Of a stretch of DNA of 64,000 nucleotides, positions 23,312-43,724 are shown one piece after another. Position 1 is the stretch's first letter, and each line of letters starts with the position of its first letter. Source of the stretch: Ornithodoros turicata (lineage: Eukaryota > Arthropoda > Arachnida > Ixodida > Argasidae); NCBI RefSeq assembly GCF_037126465.1, contig NC_088202.1, positions 117,814,123 through 117,878,122 of the forward strand, in the 5' to 3' direction. Both the position numbers and the translations under genes were made by a program. The notes beneath the pieces are model-generated. The model was not told where the DNA came from. It saw nothing but the letters and a program-made list of their open reading frames with translations, and did no database searches.

Positions 23312-23468
23312 TGATATATATATATATAAGTTTCTCTACGTGCAGCCATAGAAGCCATCTTAATCTGTAAGTTTGAATTTCAAAGACGTCTAGCGTCATT
23401 TACTTATTTCTTTAATGGCTTTTTTCCTCTCTTTATACATATATATATATATATGTATAGATACTCAT

Positions 23469-23548
23469 GGAACGATGCGGCAGCACCAGAGGACACGTGT
23501 TTCGCCGTGTTTGCGGCTCATCGGCCCTGGGTAGCTGCGCATCGTTCC
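23469..23548 (-). ncRNA. Hammerhead ribozyme, inverted copy
   Basis: This is the reverse complement of the same 80 nt found in the units, with no difference from unit 1. It faces unit 1 across about 130 bp, so the two could form a long hairpin in RNA. Confidence 0.75.
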
Positions 23549-23681
23549 AAATTGGCAAACTTTCTTTAATGGCTTTTTTTCCTGCATTACAATTCACTGG
23601 CTTGCACTGTGGCATTGAGGAGTACTCAGTCACCCTCCCAGGTGTATATCGCTCGCTGAGTGACCCCTGGTTTGCCAATTT

Positions 23682-23761
23682 GGAACGATGCGCAGCTACC
23701 CAGGGCCGATGAGCCGCAAACACGGCGAAACACGTGTCCTCTGGTGCTGCCGCATCGTTCC
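23682..23761 (+). ncRNA. Type I hammerhead ribozyme, unit 1
   Basis: Helix I is long. Outer GGAACGATGCG pairs with CGCATCGTTCC, AGC pairs with GCT, and inner CCAGGG pairs with CTCTGG (one G-U), with internal loops between. The core is CCGATGA (23706-23712), where the consensus is CUGANGA, so U4 is C. Helix II is GCCG/CGGC closed by loop CAAACA, then GAAA (23727-23730). Helix III is a minimal ACAC/GTGT. The predicted cleavage site follows GTC, between 23738 and 23739. Loop II and the helix I internal loop are placed as in natural type I motifs that use a tertiary contact. Short helix III is typical of Penelope and retrozyme hammerheads, which can act as dimers. The U4C change may weaken activity. 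Confidence 0.8.
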
Positions 23762-23968
23762 ATGAGTATCTGTTTCTCTGCGTGCAGCCATAGAAGCCAT
23801 ATTAATCTGTAAATTTGAATTTCAAACACGTCTAGTATCATTTATTTGTTTCTTTAATGGCTTTTTTTCCTGCATTACAATTCACTGGCTTGCACTGTGG
23901 CATTGAGGAGTACTCAGTCACCCTCCCAGGTGTATATCGCTCGCTGAGTGACCCCGGTTTGCCAATTT

Positions 23969-24048
23969 GGAACGATGCGCAGCTACCCAGGGCCGATGAG
24001 CCGCAAACACGGCGAAACACGTGTCCTCTGGTGCTGCCGCATCGTTCC
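23969..24048 (+). ncRNA. Hammerhead ribozyme, unit 2
   Basis: Identical to unit 1 over all 80 nt. Predicted cleavage is after 24025. Confidence 0.8.
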
Positions 24049-24256
24049 ATGAGTATCTGTTTCTCTGCGTGCAGCCATAGAAGCCATATTAATCTGTAAA
24101 TTTGAATTTCAAACACGTCTAGTATCATTTATTTGTTTCTTTAATGGCTTTTTTTCCTGCATTACAATTCACTGGCTTGCACTGTGGCATTGAGGAGTAC
24201 TCAGTCACCCTCCCAGGTGTATATCGCTCGCTGAGTGACCCCCGGTTTGCCAATTT

Positions 24257-24336
24257 GGAACGATGCGCAGCTACCCAGGGCCGATGAGCCGCAAACACGG
24301 CGAAACACGTGTCCTCTGGTGCTGCCGCATCGTTCC
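24257..24336 (+). ncRNA. Hammerhead ribozyme, unit 3
   Basis: Identical to unit 1 over all 80 nt. Predicted cleavage is after 24313. Confidence 0.8.
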
Positions 24337-24543
24337 ATGAGTATCTGTTTCTCTGCGTGCAGCCATAGAAGCCATATTAATCTGTAAATTTGAATTTCAA
24401 ACACGTCTAGTATCATTTATTTGTTTCTTTAATGGCTTTTTTTCCTGCATTACAATTCACTGGCTTGCACTGTGGCACTGAGGAGTACTCAGTCACCCTC
24501 CCAGGTGTATATCGCTCGCTGAGTGACCCCGGTTTGCCAATTT

Positions 24544-24623
24544 GGAACGATGCGCAGCTACCCAGGGCCGATGAGCCGCAAACACGGCGAAACACGTGTC
24601 CTCTGGTGCTGCCGCATCGTTCC
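24544..24623 (+). ncRNA. Hammerhead ribozyme, unit 4
   Basis: Identical to unit 1. Predicted cleavage is after 24600. Its unit differs outside the ribozyme (for example GGCACTGAGG for GGCATTGAGG). Confidence 0.8.
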
Positions 24624-24830
24624 ATGAGTAACTGTTTCTCTGCGTGCAGCCATAGAAGCCATATTAATCTGTAAATTTGAATTTCAAACACGTCTAGTAT
24701 CATTTATTTGTTTCTTTAATGGCTTTTTTTCCTGCATTACAATTCACTGGCTTGCACTGTGGCATTGAGGAGTACTCAGTCACCCTCCCAGGTGTATATC
24801 GCTCGCTGAGTGACCCCGGTTTGCCAATTT

Positions 24831-24910
24831 GGAACGATGCGCAGCTACCCAGGGCCGATGAGCCGCAAACACGGCGAAACACGTGTCCTCTGGTGCTGCC
24901 GCATCGTTCC
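24831..24910 (+). ncRNA. Hammerhead ribozyme, unit 5
   Basis: Identical to unit 1. Predicted cleavage is after 24887. Confidence 0.8.
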
Positions 24911-25118
24911 ATGAGTATCTGTTTCTCTGCGTGCAGCCATAGAAGGCATATTAATCTGTAAATTTGAATTTCAAACACGTCTAGTATCATTTATTTGTTT
25001 CTTTAATGGCTTTTTTTCCTGCATTACAATTCACTGGCTTGCACTGTGGCATTGAGGAGTACTCAGTCACCCTCCCAGGTGTATGTCGCTCGCTGAGTGA
25101 CCCCCGGTTTGCCAATTT

Positions 25119-25198
25119 GGAACGATGCGCAGCTACCCAGGGCCGATGAGCCGCAAACACGGCGAAACACGTGTCCTCTGGTTCTGCCGCATCGTTCC
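25119..25198 (+). ncRNA. Hammerhead ribozyme, unit 6
   Basis: One change, T at 25183, disrupts the short AGC/GCT pairing between the two parts of helix I. The core and the inner helix I are unchanged. Predicted cleavage is after 25175. Confidence 0.75.
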
Positions 25199-25397
25199 AT
25201 GAGTATCTGTTTCTCTGCGTGCAGCCATAGAAGCCATATTAATCTGTAAATTTGAATTTCAAACACGTCTAGTATCATTTATTTCTTTCTTTAATGGCTT
25301 TTTTTCCTGCATTATATATATGTATATATATATCAGGAAAAAAATTTGCAGGAGCTTTGTGGCTGCACGTGTTTTTAAGTCAAACGTCGCCATGCCA

Positions 25398-25443
25398 GTA
25401 CTGGACAGCTGTTTCGGCCTTATTGGGCCATCGTCAGCAGTAC
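25398..25443 (-). ncRNA. Type I hammerhead ribozyme with canonical core
   Basis: Reading the minus strand: GTACTG (helix I), CTGACGA (exact CUGANGA core), an extra T, GGCC/GGCC closed by CAATAA (helix II), GAAA, ACAG/CTGT (helix III), the cleavage triplet GTC, then CAGTAC, which pairs perfectly with GTACTG. The cleavage site lies between complements of 25404 and 25403. Every conserved core position fits. Confidence 0.8.
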
Positions 25444-25614
25444 ACAGGCAGGCAACGTTTGAGTGGATGACGTCAGAAGGTCACGTGGCACGTGATTCCT
25501 CCCGTCAGGGTGTGCTAGCACACCCTGACGCAGCACACCTTGCTTAGCATACGCAGTGCGGCAGCAGTGCCACGTGACCTTCTGACGCCATCCACTCAAA
25601 CGTTGCCTGCCTGT

Positions 25615-25660
25615 GTACTGCTGACGATGGCCCAATAAGGCCAAAACAGCTGTCCAGTAC
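25615..25660 (+). ncRNA. Hammerhead in the right foldback arm, core mutated
   Basis: Same structure as the minus-strand copy in the left arm, but the G of GAAA is A at 25643 (G12A). G12 acts in catalysis in hammerheads, so this copy is predicted inactive. Confidence 0.65.
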
Positions 25661-25669
25661 TGGCATGGC

Positions 25670-25699
<30 letters not shown>

Positions 25700-25704
<5 letters not shown>

Positions 25705-26054
25705 TACAAGTAATGAAGAGACTTGGGAGGCCGTATAAGGGTTAAAAACACTTGCTACTTTTATTACATTAATAATTAAGGGGGCGCTAGGAATAGATTT
25801 ACAGTTAGGGGTCGACGTTTCGGCAGTCAGCGCTGCCTTCAACAGAACTAAACTTGGAAATAGGTGACAAGGGTGGGTGACCCTTGTCACCTATTTCCAA
25901 GTTTAGTTCTGTTGAAGGCAGCGCTGACTGCCGAAACGTCGACCCCTAACTGTAAATCTATTCCTAGCGCCCCCTTAATTATTAATGTAATAAAAGTAGC
26001 AAGTGTTTTTAACCCTTATACGGCCTCCCAAGTCTCTTCATTACTTGTAGTCTA
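25700..26054. repeat. Near-perfect 355-bp palindrome with hammerhead-like arms
   Basis: The two arms, TAGACTACAAG to CTTGTAGTCTA, are almost identical inverted copies meeting near 25874. Each arm contains CTGTTGA, GGCAG/CTGCC, GAAACGTC (on + at 25909-25940), which has the layout of a hammerhead core. However, the conserved A6 is T and helix I is only about 3 bp, so activity is doubtful. (TA)n flanks both sides. Confidence 0.75.
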
Positions 26055-26176
26055 TTTGTTTTCGCGTCCATCTGTACTCAGTTATACATTCATATATATA
26101 TATATATATATATACATATATGTGTGTGTGTTAAAGAGGCTGATATATCAGACGGCTGCGAAGTTGAACAAGAGTG

Positions 26177-26740
26177 AAATAACAAGACGTGGACGACAGA
26201 TTACAGGAAAGTTAACAAAACCTAGTTTATTTAGTGGGTAATCTAACACAAAGATTATAATATACTATGAAACGTTTAAAAGAACGCTGGACGTTTCGAC
26301 AGTGGCACTGTCTTCGTCAGAACTAAAGTGTTAGGAATGTAGTACATGGCTTAAGTAGATTCTTGGAGTGACGTCAGGGTTGGTAGAGGTGCGCCACGTG
26401 GCGGTCGTCAGCTTCAGGGATTTTTTCCGAGGAGTGAGGTCATCATCCCTGGGCCGTTGTCCGGCTTAGCGGGATATTTCAGAGCAGGGTTGGTGCTGCT
26501 TCGACAGGGAACTATCTTGCCTTTCAGTACCCTGTCGAAGCAGTACCCACCCTGCTCTGAAATTTCCCGATAAGCCGGACAATGGCCCACGGATGATGAC
26601 CGCACTCCTCGGAGAAAATCCCTGAAAGTCCCTGAAAAGTCATTTGTGTTAGTTCTGTTAGTGAAAAGTACTTTGTGTTAGATTACCCACTAAATAAACT
26701 AGTTTTTGTTAACTTTCCTGCAATCTGTAGTCCACGTCTT
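26177..26740. mobile_element. Foldback element with asymmetric arms
   Basis: Outer arms (AACAAGACGTGGAC with GTCCACGTCTTATT, GGTAATCTAACAC with GTGTTAGATTACC) and inner arms (26408-26508 with 26530-26628) pair. The left arm has about 150 extra bp, including on the minus strand CTGACGA, GACAG/CTGTC and GAAACGTC (26290-26320), a hammerhead-like core. Helix I does not pair, so this copy is probably degenerate. It ends next to a TA tract and the mariner-type element. Confidence 0.7.
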
Positions 26741-26759
26741 ATTATTTTACTTATATATA

Positions 26760-29191
26760 CAGGGTGGTCCACCAACCATGATAGAAATTCATAGTAAAAA
26801 ACGTAGGCTCCGGAGAGACATGCGGTCAAGGGATTTTTTTCTGCCAATAACTTTTGCCACATATTGGTACATTTTTGATTTTTTTAATTTTTAATTAATT
26901 TCTTGAATTGAACCCCGAAATTTCCCGAGGCCACCTCACGTTTTCTTTGCGTAAATGGGTTCCCCGTGGTCATTTTACTCAGTATAGCACATAATCCCAC
27001 TCGTAATGCAATGGCAATTGCCGAAATAAATTCGCCGAAAATCTGTGGAAATGAGGCCTTGGCTCCGCCTCTTTTTTGACGGCTGTAGTTTGAGCGCAAA
27101 GCTGCGAAGAAAGGAGGTTACATTGACACGCCACACGAAGGGGAAAGGGTTACAAGCCCAACCCGCAGAAGAGTTCCGCTGCCAGGTATCAGCTTTGCCC
27201 ACGTCAGTTTCAGGGTCGCGCTCTTCTCCTTTATTCGTTTTTTGCTCAGTGTGTTTGTTTGCTTTTGGGTGCGCGTGAACCCGCTCCTCCTGTACGCGTC
27301 AGTTTTCACTATGACCGCAGATAGCGGTCTTGCAGTTTTTCTGCACGACCTTATTGTCATGAACCTGTGTTGCGGATATATTCACATTCAACACACTTCC
27401 TGTGTACTTTTATTGGGTTATCATTAGCGACACTTTCAATGCATACAGGATACGTTTCCATGAACAATAGAAGACAAAGCAACTTTAAAAAAAAAACGAA
27501 AGTTGAAAGCAAAACGAAATTTGCGAAAGCAAAATATCACCTTGCACCAGGTATGGCTAAAAGTGTTCGAAGTGTTCGCCATCGGCTGCAATGCACAGGT
27601 GGGCTCTCCGAATTGTGTCTTTTGCGGCCCTTTTATTTCGGATCTGGAGAGCGACGAGCAGAAAGCAGTGATTTTCCCCTGCAGGTCAGCCGGCGATCGT
27701 TGCTCGCTTTTGTATACTTCGTCTTTGATGCGACCCCAGAGGTAAAAGTCCATAGGCGTTAAGTCAGGAGACCTGGCGGGCCATGACACTGGACCAAATC
27801 GGCCAACCCACTTCTCCCGGAACGTCTGACGGAGCAGCTGTAATGCACGCCGCGCGCTGTGAGGTTGAGCCCCATCGTGCTGGAACCATACGCAGGTCCG
27901 TTCAGCAAGAGGCAGGTTATCAACAAAGCTGAACACGACATCTAAAATTTCGCTACAGTAGCGGTTGGCATTTAGGGATCCCGTGGAAAAAGATTAGCCC
28001 AATAATGGCTCCGTTATAAATCCCGGCCTATACATTGAATCCCCACTCGTACTGATGCTTGCAGTCCCGTAGCCAGTGTGAGTTTGTCTGGCTCCAATAA
28101 TGCGCGTTGTGGGGATTCACTTGAGCGCTATGGCAGACATGGGCCTCATCAGTCCAAATGACCCTGGTCACAAAGTTTCTGCTTTCCTCGGTCTGACATA
28201 GGATCCAGTTACAGAAATCCAGCCGTTTCTCGTTGTGCCCGGCTGGAAATGTTGATGAAGGCTCACGTGGTGCGGGTGGAGTTTGTGCTTGTGTAGTATC
28301 CTCAACACACTTGACTTTGATGTCTGTACTCGCATTGCCAGGGTGCGCAGACTTACGTGGGGATCATCTCCTACTTCTTTCAGGATCTTGTTTGTCTCGA
28401 CCCACTGGCAGTGATTGGGTGTGACCGGCTCTGGGTACCAGAATGGAAACTTCCTGTTGTGGACAGTCTCAAAAATGCACGCCTTATGGTACAAGAGCTC
28501 ACCACCCTAGTACATAGAAACATTTCACTGTATTTGAGGACTGCTCTGTCATAGTCCATACCTGCGGCCCCTTGAGCAATGATCATCCTTGTTTTTTCTG
28601 GGTTGGAATACACGGTGCTTGCCATCGTTGCCGTTTACTTGTTCACTGCATTCACTGAGGCCGGAGTACAAAACGCTCCAAAAATGTATTTCCTTCCTAC
28701 CTGTCAACACGTCGGGTGACCTCATTTTTGATAAGATAGCTCTGATTCTCCCACTCACCGTGCGTGTTTGTTCCGTGGGTAAGGCTTGTAACCCTTCCCC
28801 CCTCGTGTGGCGTGTTAATGTAACCTCCTTTCTTCGCAGCTTGGCGCTCAAACTACAGCCGTCAAAAAAGAGGCGGAGCCAAGGCTTATTTCCACGGATT
28901 TTCGGCGAATTTATTTTGGCAATTGCCATTGCATTACGAGTGGGATTATGTGCTATACTAAGTAAAATGACCAAGGGGAACCCATTTCCGCAAAGAAAAC
29001 TTTAGGTTGCCTTGGGAAATTTCGGAGTTCAATTCAAGAAATTAACTTTCCGTCAATTGAAATGAAATAAAAATGTTACCCATATGTGCGGTCAAAGTTA
29101 TTGGCATCAAAAAATCCCTTGACCGTATGTCTCTCCGGGGCCTACGTATTTTACTATGAATTTCCATCATGGTTCGTAGACCACCACCCTG
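26760..29191. mobile_element. Mariner-type DNA transposon with terminal inverted repeats of about 400 bp
   Basis: TA flanks a 2.43-kb element. The ends read CAGGGTGGTCC and, reversed, CAGGGTGGTGGTC, and the inverted repeats extend to about 27170 and 28780. They include subterminal AATTGAACCCCGAAATTT and its partner. The centre holds a broken transposase on the minus strand. TA target and the DDE motifs place it in the IS630-Tc1-mariner group. Confidence 0.85.
27560..28625 (-). pseudogene. Mariner-type transposase, broken
   Basis: The N-terminal helix-turn-helix region (NKILKEVGDDPHVSLRTLAM, then SKSSVLRILHKH and LHPHHV) lies at 28494-28168. The first acidic motif (WTDEAHV) is in a stretch with stops near 28150. 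The second (FQHDGAQPHSARR) and third (ARSPDLTPMDFYLWG) motifs are in the frame ending at 27436. Stops and frameshifts separate these parts, so no functional enzyme is encoded. The last residues of the 27436-27936 frame extend past the homologous region and are probably not transposase. Confidence 0.85.
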
Positions 29192-36935: not shown

Positions 36936-37846
36936 GGGGTATGCAAGGTATAATTATGTACCTCAACTCGGTCAGATTTTATACAGCGTGCGTTGCACAT
37001 GCGACGTTATGTCTTATCACAATCCTTCATGTATACTATACAGGGTGTCTTTTTTTTAGGCGCCACAGATATTTTATTAAAAATCTATGAGAGCCGTACG
37101 TATGCCATTTGGGCGTGTAACATACCTGGCCTGGCGGACATTTTTCCTAGCCGGTCGTATCGGTGTTCGATGACTAATAAACTAAAATTCGATAATTAAC
37201 TTAGCTGGAACAGCTTTCGACTATACGACGGTCTTCAATCCTGCCATCTCAGTTTTTCCTAAAACTCTTTTCTTAGTAAGTTAATTATCGTATGTTTGCT
37301 AATGAGATATCGAACACCGATGCGACCGGCCAGGAAAGTTGTTCGCCAGACCAGGTATGTTAGACGCCCAAACGGGGGGGGGGGGGGGGTATATGTTTAA
37401 TGCAAAGTAAAAAAAGAAAAGAGACGAGAGAAAAGTTAGCCACGATGTGCGCTTGCTATTCCCTAAAGCTTTCAAGCAAACAAAAGAAGATACAAACAGC
37501 TGGGATACAGAAAATTATAAAAAAAATACACAAGAAACAGGTCCTTCACTAATCGTTGCGCATAGGACGTATCAGAGAATGCACAGGAGTTTAGATTCCC
37601 GGAGGAATCGTGTCAGCGCAGAGGTGACTTCACCGTGCTGGGTAGGGCCAAGTAGCACCGCGAGGGAAAGCTCTCGGTAGCCTAGATGAGCAAGGCGGTG
37701 CCGGTGACTCGATCGGTGATCTTCGTACCGCTGGTAGGCAATGAGGATGTGTGGCACATCGGCTTCTACGTTGCACGTTGGGCAAAGAGGTGATGGGTGC
37801 TGATTCATCTTAAATAGGAGGAGAGAAGTTCGTGCCACATTCAGCC

Positions 37847-40054
37847 CTATCCTCCTTTCGCCCGGTGAGCCTGACAAGCTGTGTGGGGAAACTGATGGAG
37901 AGAATGGTTTTGCATCGCCTCGACTGGTGGCTCGAAAAACGACGTGCGTTCCCTCACGAAATGGCTGGATTTCGTCGCCACCGAAGCTCCATGGATCCAG
38001 TTCTCGACCTAGTCTCTACAGTTCAACATGCTCGAGCCCATCGACGGATCGTCCGATCGGTCTTCCTCGACATCAAGCGCGCCTATGATACCGTCTCGCA
38101 CATTTGTGTGCTGCATGCCTTGCGCTCGTTTGGAGTATCCGGTCGGCTCTTCATCTGGCTCCAAGACTTCCTTACGGACCGAACTGTCGCTGTCCGTACG
38201 TCCCAAGGCCAAAGCCCTCAGCATCCTGTTCCCCAAGGAGTCCCCCAAGGAAGCATTCTCAGCCCGACACTCTTTAACGTGGTGATGGCCGGCCTACAAT
38301 CAGTAATTCCTCGCAAAGTGTCGTTCTCCGTGTATGCAGATGACGTCGCCCTTTGGACAGTAGGAAAATCACGCCCGGCTCTCCAGCGCCGCCTGCAGCT
38401 CGCTTTAAACAATATCCACACGTACCTGACGCACCTCGGGATGGACCTTTCACCCGAAAAGTGTGTCGAGCTCCCTTTCACGCGTAAAGCTATGGCCAAT
38501 TTCCCACTTTGGCTTGGTTTAAAGAAGCTAGAACCAGTACGCTTTCACCGCTTCCTTGGCGTGGTAATCGACTCGGACTTGCGCTGGGCTCGGCACATTA
38601 AACACCTTGAAACTAAAGTGCAGCGATGGCTCCCCGCAATCCAACATCTTTCTGGCCCAGGATGGGGCTGTGATCAGCGTTCCCTGCTCGCGGTTCACGC
38701 GGCATTGGTGAGGGCAACTGTGCTTTACAGCCTTCCTATTCTGCACAGGATATCAACAACTTCATTAAATACGCTTCGGTCCCTGTTTGCTCGAAGCCTT
38801 CGTCGATGCCTCGGAGTTCCAAGAATGGCTGAAACACGACAAGTACTGGCTGAAGCTGGTGAGCTCCCGATTGAAGTTCTCCGTGAACGGGAAACGGCTC
38901 GGCACTACCTCCGTTTGCGTGCTCACATTCCCCGCCACCCGCTACTCAGGAAAATTCGATACCGCCCTGGAAGCGACTTCTATCGAGTAGCGCAGAGGAC
39001 ACGCCAGACTCTCACTGGCTTCATAACTAAGGACACTATACCGCCGGAAGCCCCCTGGTCTCTACCGGTACCGCCCACTTTTGTACGCCTCCCAAACCTT
39101 CTGCAAATAAGAGATCAGGTCCCACCTCAAGTCCTCCGAGCCCATTTTCATGCTCTGGTAGACGAGAAGTTTTCTACGTTTACGGCAGCATATACTGATG
39201 GCGCATCGCGAAACAACAAGTCCGCCTCAGCCTTCGTCATTCCATCCGAAGGCGTCGTGCACGGAAGACGCCTTTCACATCCAACCTCCTCCACAGCTGC
39301 GGAACTCTATGCCATCCTTTTCTTTCTACAACACATCGCTGATTTTCCACCCCGGGAATGGGCAGTCTTTACAGACTCCAAATCTGCACTTCAAGCAATT
39401 GAAACTTCCGGCATACGAGGCCCATCCGCATCCCTAGTCACAGACGTGTTAATGGCTTACCACACTATCTACGCCGCAGGCCACAGGCTAGTTCTCCAGT
39501 GGGTTCCAGCCCATTGTGGTGTCGTGGGGAACGAGCAGGCCGACAGCGCCGCAGAAGCAGCACTCTCGTCTCGGAACCGGACCCGTATTGTTCTGCTCAG
39601 AGGAGACCGCCGTTCAATTCTGCGACGTCTAGTGACACCCCTGGCTTCCCGCCAACGGACAACCGACATTCTTCCCCCCTCTATGTTGAACAGAGTTGAT
39701 CCCACGCTCGCTTTCCGCATGCCACGAAACACATCTCGTCAGGATGCTGCATTAATCCACCGCATGCGCCTCGATGTGGCCTTTACAGCTCAGTGGCGTT
39801 ACCGCTTGTGACAAATTGATTCTCCCACCTGCTGCCACTGTGGTGCTCTTGAGGATCTGGAGCACATTCTTCTTCATTGCCCTCACTACGAACCTTCCCG
39901 AACCACACTCTCCGAGTCTCTTCGTCAGCTGGACTCTCGCCCTTTCTCCCTACCGAAATTGCTTGGTCCCTGGCCCAATCCAGCCCAGCAACGCTCTGCG
40001 CTCAAAGGTCTTCTGACATTTCTGGACACCATCGGACTTCGATCGTTATTGTAA
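37847..40054 (+). pseudogene. LINE ORF2 (RT, RNase H, Cys/His tail) with one nonsense mutation
   Basis: The reverse transcriptase shows FRPVSLTSCVGK, FLDIKRAYDTVSH, PQGVPQGSILSP and the catalytic FSVYADDVALW. RNase H follows with AAYTDGASRNNKSAS, FTDSKSALQAIETSG and WVPAHCGVVGNEQADSAAEA. The frame is open for about 655 codons, then meets TGA at 39809-39811 where the sister copy at 20100 has CGA. It continues open for 80 codons with CCHCGALEDLEHILLHCPHY and ends at TAA. The N-terminal endonuclease and first RT part are missing, so it could not move by itself. RT plus RNase H fits the I/R1/Jockey groups; I do not assign one. Confidence 0.9.
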
Positions 40055-41611: not shown

Positions 41612-43585
41612 TCATCGCGAGGGGCGATGCTCTACCCCAGTAATGTGGTGAAATGAAATAATGAGTCGCCTCACAGTGAGGACCGGAGTCACACAGTGTC
41701 GAGAACGTGTAGGAGTGCTTTTACAAAAGAGCGTTGGTGGGCTGGTTTTGCCCATGGACAAAGCAATTTCTTCGTACAGAGACGGCGAGAGTCCATCTGC
41801 TTTAGAGACACTGAAAGTGTGTTTCGGAAGAGGTGATAGTGCGGGCAATAGAGAAGGATATTGTTGCGAGAGCCACAGCGTCAGGATGGTAATCACTTCC
41901 ATCAGATCAGGGTCACGGGCTTGTTCTGTGCATAGATCGAGGTTGTCAATGAATGAGACCGTTCCGCTGCTTCCGCAAGCTGGTAGGGGGGACCGTGACA
42001 GCGCATCCGCATCTTGATGTTTGAGTCCTGCTCGATACCTGACATCAAAGTCGTATTCTTGAAGCTGAAGGGCCCAACGAGCGAGCCTCCCAGAGGGAGA
42101 CTTAATGTTGACCAACCAACAGAGCGCGTGATGGTCAGTGACAACCGTAAAATGTCGTCCATATAAGTAGGGTCTGAGTTTTGTAACCGCCCAGACAACA
42201 GCCAAACATTCTTTCTCAGTAACACTGTAGTTCGTCTCCGGGCCAGTCAGGGATCGACTCGCGAAGGCAACCGGGTGTTCTACGTTCTCCCAGCGTTGAG
42301 CCAGAACTGCACCGAGTCCCACTCCACTAGCATCCGTGTGAAGTTCCGTTGGTTTGTCTGGGTTGAAGTGCCGTAGTAAAGGGGCGGAAGAAAGTTCGCG
42401 TTTGAGGATCTGGAAGGAGCTCTCGTGCTCGTAAGTCCAACTGTACAATGAGCCTTTTTTTAAAAGGGCATGAAGGGGGTGTGCTTTTTTCGCGAAGTCC
42501 TTGATGAACCTGCGGAAATAAGAGCATAACCCAAGAAACCTCCGCAAAGACTTAACAGTGGTTGGACAGGGAAATTCTGCAACTGCGGCGATCTTCTTAG
42601 GGTCAGGCCGAATACCGTCGGCAGACACGACATGGCCGAGGATCGTGAGTTCTTGTGAACCGAACCGGCACTTCTTACTGTTCAGCGTGAGGTTGGCGCC
42701 ACGCATGCAATTAAGAACTTGACCGAGACGCGCATTGTGCTCATCAATCGTAGATCCAAACACAACGATGTCGTCTAAGTAGCAGAGGCAAGCGGTCCAT
42801 TTCAAATTGCCAAGGACGTTGTCGACCATTCGCTCGAAGGTAGCTGGCGCGTTGCACAAACCAAACGGCATTACTTTGAACTCGTAAAGCCCATCGGGAG
42901 TGACGAAAGCTGTTTTTTCACGGTCCCTAGGGTCCACTTCAATTTGCCAGTATCCAGATCGCATATCGATCGAGGAAAAGTATTTTGCATTTTGTAGGGA
43001 ATCGAGTGCGTCATCAATACGTGGCATCGGATAGGTATCCCGCTTAGTGATCTTATTGAGTTTTCTGTAGTCGACACAAAAGCGCCATGAGTTATCTTTC
43101 TTGCGTACTAAAACAACTCGTGCAGCCCAGGGACTGCAAGAGGGCTGGATAATGTCGCCTTTCAACATCTCATCGACTTCTTTTTGAATGACCTGGCGTT
43201 CAGCAAAGGACACTCGATACGGCTTCTGTCTTATGGGACCCTGACCCTCAGTGTCGATAGAGTGTTTGACGACGGATGTGTGTCTCAGGGGCCTCTTCTC
43301 GAAGTCAAAGATAGTACCGTAGGGATGCAGAAGTCGCATAATTTTCACTCGGTTCTCGTCGTCGAGCGCACCGTCGATCATGGACAGAAGGCGCTCCGAG
43401 AGTATGTCCTCAGCTGGGTCAGGAGGCGGTGATGTAGCTGGAGGTAAGTCGTCAGAGAGACAGGTGACATCGGCGCAGAATATCGGCATTGTAAATGAAG
43501 CGACTGTTACGCCCTTAGGAAGCGTTTGTGGAGAGAAGCCTGGGTTAACGAGCCAAAGAGAAGTTGAGCCGTTTGCCAGCGTCAC
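41612..43585 (-). CDS. Ty3/gypsy RT and RNase H frame, with a chimeric tail
   Basis: An uninterrupted frame of 657 codons. RT shows CVDYRKLNKITKRDTYPMPR, FSSIDMRSGYWQIEV, VMPFGLCNAPATFERM and the catalytic CYLDDIVVF. The RNase H domain shows ELHTDASGVGLGAVLAQ, TEKECLAVVWAV, VTDHHALCWLV and QDADALSRSP. The natural sequence ends after about codon 574, at the element boundary (41862). The last 83 codons, from YPSLLPALSPLP on, are LINE sequence read in another frame. No integrase follows and no protease precedes. It is classed as a fragment: the open frame suggests a fairly young insertion, not a working gene. Confidence 0.9.
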   Translation of the reverse strand: MTLANGSTSLWLVNPGFSPQTLPKGVTVASFTMPIFCADVTCLSDDLPPATSPPPDPAEDILSERLLSMIDGALDDENRVKIMRLLHPYGTIFDFEKRPLRHTSVVKHSIDTEGQGPIRQKPYRVSFAERQVIQKEVDEMLKGDIIQPSCSPWAARVVLVRKKDNSWRFCVDYRKLNKITKRDTYPMPRIDDALDSLQNAKYFSSIDMRSGYWQIEVDPRDREKTAFVTPDGLYEFKVMPFGLCNAPATFERMVDNVLGNLKWTACLCYLDDIVVFGSTIDEHNARLGQVLNCMRGANLTLNSKKCRFGSQELTILGHVVSADGIRPDPKKIAAVAEFPCPTTVKSLRRFLGLCSYFRRFIKDFAKKAHPLHALLKKGSLYSWTYEHESSFQILKRELSSAPLLRHFNPDKPTELHTDASGVGLGAVLAQRWENVEHPVAFASRSLTGPETNYSVTEKECLAVVWAVTKLRPYLYGRHFTVVTDHHALCWLVNIKSPSGRLARWALQLQEYDFDVRYRAGLKHQDADALSRSPLPACGSSGTVSFIDNLDLCTEQARDPDLMEVITILTLWLSQQYPSLLPALSPLPKHTFSVSKADGLSPSLYEEIALSMGKTSPPTLFCKSTPTRSRHCVTPVLTVRRLIISFHHITGVEHRPSR

Positions 43586-43724
43586 TAGGCTGCGGGGAGA
43601 TACAATGTTAAGAGAAACGGGGGTGACTCAGTCTGTTTATTATCGGGCCAGCACGAGAGGAAGAGACCGCCACCCGTGCCAGAGAACGCCTTCGTCCTCT
43701 CACGCTCGCCTATTACCCGTGACA
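41862..43724 (-). mobile_element. Ty3/gypsy deletion derivative with ATAT target duplication
   Basis: On the minus strand it begins TGTCACGGGTAATAG (LTR start; AATAAACAG inside) at 43724 and ends CTCTCGCAACA at 41862. ATAT flanks it at 43725-43728 and 41858-41861. The LTR-like start runs about 120 bp. Protease and gag are missing, and integrase and nearly all of the 3' LTR are missing. It is 1,863 bp, and only the RT and RNase H part of pol remains. Confidence 0.8.

Follow-up and report, generated by a model that had tools for sequence, protein, structure and literature searches.

A tick hammerhead retrozyme whose insertion ends match those of Penelope-like elements

An array of hammerhead-bearing units in the genome of the soft tick Ornithodoros turicata raises the question of how such repeats reach new sites. 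Animal hammerhead repeats have been known since the newt satellite of 1987 (recounted in a passage of PMC7229834), and a passage of a 2020 review stated the machinery that moves them as an open question (PMC7761336). The array lies in a stretch of 64,000 nucleotides (contig NC_088202.1, positions 117,814,123 to 117,878,122), here called the window. Our analysis of the locus and its relatives indicates that the array is a non-autonomous hammerhead retrozyme, quite probably copied into a TA repeat by enzymes of the tick's own Penelope-like elements, namely their reverse transcriptase and GIY-YIG endonuclease. The kind of element is already known; what is new is the anatomy of its ends and their match to Penelope. 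Our searches of openly licensed PMC papers brought up no title or abstract on the insertion ends of retrozymes, on their head-to-head arrangement or on retrozymes from ticks.

An earlier note on this DNA, made from the letters alone, had described 23330..25315 as one retrozyme-type array of six near-identical 287/288-bp units, with a hammerhead in every unit. The array and its type I hammerhead in each full unit are borne out by TRF and Rfam: TRF reports 23561-25314 with period 287, 6.1 copies and 99% matches, and successive units step by 287, 288, 287, 287 and 288 nt. The direct units are, however, five full and two partial ones, and the stretch 23330-23425, 90.6-91.7% identical to the array units, is a separate fragment and not part of the young array. 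A seventh copy lies inverted at 23486-23530. Reverse-complemented, 23459-23560 agrees with 23670-23771 at 102/102 positions, and because the left end is an inverted copy, the window insertion is head-to-head, with TA tract on both sides. Its parts and immediate surroundings are as follows.

23330..23425, + strand: an older piece of this family covering unit positions 1-96, identified by identity to the units; TA tracts adjoin it too
23434..23459, no strand: left TA tract, beside the a end (sequence)
23460..25314, no strand: entire retrozyme insertion, inverted arm and direct arm within a TA tract; the final TA (25313-25314) belongs to unit and tract alike
23460..23560, - strand: inverted arm with one hammerhead (23469-23548), bounded on the outside at 23460 by end 'a', unit position 287; exact reverse complement of direct-arm sequence with one base more, Rfam match 23486-23530
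23561..25314, + strand: direct arm, bounded on the outside at 25314 by end 'b', unit position 106 (TRF, unit mapping)
Order within the direct arm, + strand: a partial unit, full units from 23772, 24059, 24347, 24634 and 24921, and a last partial unit from 25209
23682..23761, + strand: first-unit hammerhead, predicted cut 23738/23739 (Rfam RF00163, coordinates of the 80-nt motif)
Further direct-arm hammerheads, + strand: starts at 23969, 24257, 24544, 24831 and 25119 (coordinates of the 80-nt motif)
25313..25333, no strand: right TA tract, beside the b end (sequence)
25334..25672, no strand: neighbouring element 2, from a second hammerhead family, head-to-head, with a palindrome at 25386-25672 and a tail at 25334-25385 (sequence, tandem relatives at locus L019)

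Differences between units are each confined to one unit, the exception being the length of a C run; unit 6 carries a G-to-T change in distal helix I. A 14-bp repeat flanks the insertion, and we considered it as proof of a target duplication, which is weakened by its lack of significance within TA repeats (p=0.16 in a TA-tract null). The unit has a GC content of 47.4%, and the longest stop-free run over three tandem units is 96 aa, with no long open reading frame (ORF). It thus shows sequence features of metazoan non-LTR retrozymes, namely tandem type I hammerhead units of ~150-450 bp with GC below 50% and no protein-coding region. The reverse transcriptase/GIY-YIG ORF that defines an autonomous Penelope-like element is absent from the unit; such ORFs lie elsewhere in the genome. 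The window element is an animal non-LTR retrozyme. Absent from the earlier note are the inverted copy, both fixed ends, the preference for TA repeats as target and the Penelope match, features that tell more about mechanism than the array itself.

The earlier note had also called for an Infernal search with the Rfam type I model. Hammerhead_1 (RF00163) gave seven window matches at or above its gathering score of 34, six on the + strand and one on the - strand (23486-23530), each with 35.5 bits and E=3.4e-5, so that 7/7 copies passed. A custom descriptor (core with at most one mismatch, stems I-III, cut triplet) recovered these seven copies and a single neighbour, whereas 20 first-order Markov random windows gave 0 hits. 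By sequence, helix I is long and interrupted, with TAC opposite T; helix II is GCCG/CGGC with loop CAAACA, beside GAAA and a GTC cut triplet; and helix III is short (ACACGTGT). The minimum-free-energy fold of an isolated 85-nt hammerhead, in which distal helix I and helix II form and helix III is absent, speaks against the claim that an 80-nt segment forms all three helices. The canonical core CUGANGA ... GAAA does not occur among the window's copies, all seven of which read CCGATGA, with C in place of the consensus U at core position 4 (C4 rather than U4).

A genome search for other arrays, likewise proposed in the earlier note, uncovered thousands of copies. Over 1,071,346,672 bp in 379 contigs, a 33-nt hammerhead pattern allowing up to 3 mismatches matched 9,869 times (4,912 + 4,957), and a reversed-pattern control 0 times. 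Viral and prokaryote contig sets returned 0 matches, which is uninformative about relatives as these sets hold only viral and prokaryote DNA. We mapped ends, that is, where unit blocks start and stop, in the window and 36 fetched stretches. These comprised all 15 array loci among the 100 matches listed, all on contig C1 with an exact C4 core and the longest array taken as two end stretches, together with 20 of the 23 loci from the list of a rare U4 form, CTGATGAG. Once ends cut by a stretch edge had been removed, 81 3' ends and 22 head-to-head pairs were available, with the window included and several insertions per stretch.

The 3' ends concentrate at two places in the unit. With windows fixed after inspection of these same loci (a, unit positions 279-287; b, 85-108), 62 of 81 3' ends lie at a (25) or b (37) and 19 elsewhere (binomial p=9e-42 against uniform). 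The 5' ends are scattered (14/79 in comparable windows, p=0.17). The a end is at unit position 287, GAGTATCT followed by AT repeats; the b end is at about unit positions 91-106, with GCATTA or CTCTTTA followed by TA repeats. Among the 22 head-to-head pairs we counted 14 a+b, one b+b and no a+a, the remaining seven having an unassigned or cut end; mixed end types in 14/15 correspond to p=3e-4 under independence. TA runs of at least 8 nt lie within 40 nt of 19/25 a ends and 32/37 b ends, as against 3/19 other ends and 0.8% of the window's random 40-mers. Twelve of the 19 3' ends outside a and b are in U4 blocks. Ten adjacent block pairs stand tail-to-tail within 60 bp; these neighbours apparently represent independent insertions that share a TA tract.

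A later set of ten loci, drawn from the list of another U4 form, CTGACGAG, and selected for short appearance, was assessed with the same windows. It placed 13/15 ends at a or b; three of four head-to-head pairs were a+b, and the fourth had its second end at 110, two bases past the b window. TA runs accompanied 3/6 a ends and 6/7 b ends, and some insertions were one-armed.

The same genome holds elements with this end anatomy and candidate enzymes for it. A GIY-YIG search yielded 3,506 candidates, of which 150 were scored and 150/150 passed the family cut-off; many of those scored lie in long open frames and many in head-to-head pairs. One 928-aa ORF carries both RVT_1 (reverse transcriptase) and GIY-YIG, which is the composition of a Penelope-like element. 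We examined the outer ends of 15 head-to-head pairs from among the scored candidates, a preselection that makes the comparison one of end-type pairing and target rather than orientation. In 14/15 pairs one end is tailless and the other tailed, all beside TA repeats: the tailless arm ends in CCCCTATCT followed by AT repeats, and the tailed arm adds ~41 nt before TA repeats. The tail of L069, which has one changed base, was called by eye. The pair counted as a miss (L045/L046) has two tailed ends and identical outer flanks and may be an inverted duplication. Most sampled retrozyme ends at a or b likewise sit in AT-rich or TA DNA, the Penelope-type target, and many copies show the Penelope-type arrangement, in which one arm is inverted and only one of the two outer ends has a tail. 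Since ends, head-to-head layout and TA targets match those of the Penelopes, a Penelope enzyme likely copies the retrozyme RNA.

No binding motif was common to the retrozyme and the examined Penelope: their tail alignment was equalled by 448/500 shuffles and their whole-unit alignment by 117/200, and we dropped a shared tail between the two as nothing beyond chance. The retrozyme tail does have a 10-mer, CGTGCAGCCA, in common with neighbouring element 2 (2/500 shuffles as good), which we regard as suggestive only. A candidate Penelope ORF was also sought inside the window, with none among the 10 ORFs scanned. By eye, autonomous Penelopes contain a hammerhead-like motif, CCGAAGA (L050:381-414, L045-L054), that also seems to have C at core position 4; it gave no Rfam match.

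Three palindromes downstream in the window adjoin TA tracts. Element 2 has a core of CTGACGA plus one extra base and a GGCC/GGCC helix II; its family forms a 233-bp tandem array at L019:411-1778 with four Hammerhead_1 matches of 40.6 bits. Elements 3 (25702-26091, 98.6% between arms) and 4 (about 26133-26752, ~87-94%) are palindromic as well. Elements 2 and 3 are tailed on one side only, and element 4 appears so by eye. Also by eye, elements 3 and 4 contain sequences like the minimal Penelope hammerhead, with relatives beside a Penelope end in L052; neither the custom descriptor nor Rfam reported Penelope-type hammerhead motifs in them. At 27436-28506 (- strand), broken frames resemble a mariner-type transposase by eye and have no Pfam match. 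Two further retrotransposon features came from the domain scan.

37814-39811, + strand: LINE reverse transcriptase with RNase H
41612-43627, - strand: LTR-retrotransposon-type reverse transcriptase with RNase H

Named matches of the LINE ORF are mostly tick proteins (Ixodes, Ornithodoros, Dermacentor); the closest of them (79% identity, 46% of the query covered) carries the label Bradyrhizobium and is probably a contaminated record.

The altered core, which the earlier note had described as uniform in every copy, is uniform only among the window's seven. Genome-wide that description is false: exact U4 copies number 2,393, of which 2,359 are CTGACGAG and 34 CTGATGAG. The 46 stretches gave 126 distinct hammerheads, and at core position 4 we read T in 88 of them, C in 37 and A in one. 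The accompanying guess that C4 marks a distinct lineage is supported by these U4 kin and by an association within helix I, where C4 goes with G at position 2.2 in 142/143 copies and U4 with A in 69/107. Uncut 3' ends lie at a or b in 23/23 cases for C4 blocks and 20/32 for U4 blocks. Full units differ by 0.0-5.2 positions per 287 nt within ten C4-only blocks, 7.3-30.7 within six U4 blocks and 5.0-8.9 within three mixed blocks, with 15.7 in L016, whose core the script did not read; the U4 sample came largely through the rare form and may lean towards old copies. Under the Rfam HH9 model (gathering 52), U4 copies at L041 reach 38-50 bits, compared with 40 for the window's C4 copies. Because of the end precision and low within-block divergence of its blocks, C4 looks like a younger, recently mobile sublineage, and the C4 core is likely derived, belonging to one sublineage that has remained mobile. 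The ribozyme of this sublineage is therefore either active enough or dispensable for insertion. We had also considered stronger conservation of the hammerhead than of the rest of the unit as proof of selection and dropped it, as the loci were chosen by core matches.

Collectively, these patterns suggest how an insertion might arise, with Penelope machinery likely copying retrozyme RNA from a different start site for each of the two target strands. Hammerheads in the transcript would yield monomers, which a host ligase would close into circles. The Penelope endonuclease would cut both strands of a TA tract, and both DNA ends would prime reverse transcription on retrozyme RNA, the first starting from a and the second from b. 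Each cDNA would cover part of a lap or many laps on circular or multimeric RNA, and the two cDNAs would then be joined head-to-head, at a point that varies between insertions. The near-identical units of young arrays are consistent with a circle or closed multimer as template: seven full units at L015 show zero differences, and 19 full units across both arms at L014 have 3 variable gap-free sites, although these two arrays differ by ~8% from the window's unit. Alternating variants at L017 and L042 may reflect dimeric templates. We also observed long arrays with higher-order repeats, of ~11 units with C4 and U4 mixed at L033 and of 5-7 units at L037; where arrays have such periods, which range from 2 to 11 units, multimeric templates or later DNA duplication may be the source. 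Ribozyme activity, the circular RNA and the role of the enzyme we infer from sequence patterns.

Other routes to such arrays have to be weighed against this one. The higher-order periods at L033 (~11 units) and L037 (5-7 units), as well as the very long array at C1:181336557-181349556, are what an ordinary DNA satellite spread by unequal crossing-over might leave, its hammerhead a relic without a role in movement; crossing-over would not, however, be expected to leave loci across the genome with fixed ends at a and b next to TA repeats, give the two arms opposite end types or keep the units of young arrays near-identical, and we consider this account very improbable. The mover might instead be a different retrotransposon, such as a LINE whose endonuclease cuts TA, and the Penelope-like ends of the retrozyme would then reflect convergence on the same target. 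LINE reverse transcriptases do occur in the window, the retrozyme has no recognition motif in common with the examined Penelope, and twin priming, a LINE habit, could also give head-to-head copies. Yet two fixed internal starts and the pairing of tailless with tailed ends recur in this genome's Penelopes (14/15 pairs), and we know of no LINE with such end pairing. The two starts and the end pairing also agree with Penelope biochemistry (PMC11167929), and we judge a LINE mover unlikely.

A third rival keeps the Penelope enzymes and removes the ribozyme: they would move uncut multimeric transcripts, and the hammerhead, at least in the C4 lineage, would be dead or serve as structure only. C4 violates the CUGA-turn consensus, and a mutagenesis study of another hammerhead reports, in the part bearing on this turn, low activity for nearly all changes there (PMC9901934). 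Hammerhead mutants left Penelope insertion unaffected in vitro (PMC11167929), and C4 blocks have 23/23 ends at a or b. Against a dead ribozyme stand the near-identical units of young arrays, as from a single circular template, and the conservation of the two tertiary loops and of the remaining fixed core positions, at least 95% canonical or conserved in the 126 distinct copies, a figure that sampling by core pattern inflates. We regard this reading as possible, though less likely than not.

If Penelopes do copy retrozymes, the question of the mover would be answered. The copies would be a genomic footprint of two-strand Penelope initiation, until now seen in vitro in Anolis (PMC11167929), and a direct test is feasible in one assembled genome with thousands of copies and full-length Penelope ORFs. 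The C4 and U4 sublineages offer a natural experiment on whether such movement needs ribozyme cleavage. We think it somewhat likely that animal retrozymes at large are SINE-like partners of Penelopes, whose enzyme would cut both TA strands, start at two fixed points of an RNA circle, one for each strand, and run laps in both arms, so that insertion would give head-to-head arrays of which only one end has a tail; the youngest tick lineage would do so with C at the U-turn uridine, which would mean that this core works in a new way or else prove that cleavage is dispensable.

Known systems frame each part of this picture. Natural hammerhead core variants are known but rare, according to a passage of PMC3088659, and they resemble C4 in being persistent changes at an otherwise fixed core position; the passages of PMC3088659 and PMC7151607 that treat them describe A6C, insertions, C3/G8 covariation and a U15.1-A16.1 pair, and not U4C. 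The tick U4C is unlike these in that many mobile copies carry it beside U4 kin.

The closest counterparts of the insertion anatomy are the GIY-YIG Penelopes (PMC11167929 and parts of PMC3846280), which share with the retrozyme an AT/TA target, an inverted arm, tailed and tailless ends, internal start sites and a hammerhead-like motif. The Anolis Penelope protein cuts AT-rich DNA and extends both strands in vitro, from two adjacent internal RNA starts that flank the tail and lack homology to the cut DNA (PMC11167929); rotifer Penelopes are described, in a portion of PMC3846280, with an inverted pLTR, an optional tail and possible 8-10-bp duplications. The retrozyme is unlike Penelopes in having no long ORF, a 287-bp unit, and ~106 nt between its end positions compared with a ~41-nt tail.

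Metazoan non-LTR retrozymes, as set out in sections of PMC7229834, share with the tick element a type I hammerhead with helix I/loop II contact elements, tandem units of 170-400 nt in thousands of copies, and Penelopes in the same genome. There the authors named Penelopes as strong candidate movers on the basis of hammerheads in both, tandem arrangement and co-occurrence, and a passage of the same authors' 2020 review describes metazoan retrozymes as lacking a motif that reveals the machinery used (PMC7761336). The tick retrozyme differs from these in that its ends, head-to-head arms and TA target have been mapped and match those of Penelope, and in that one sublineage carries a C4 core.
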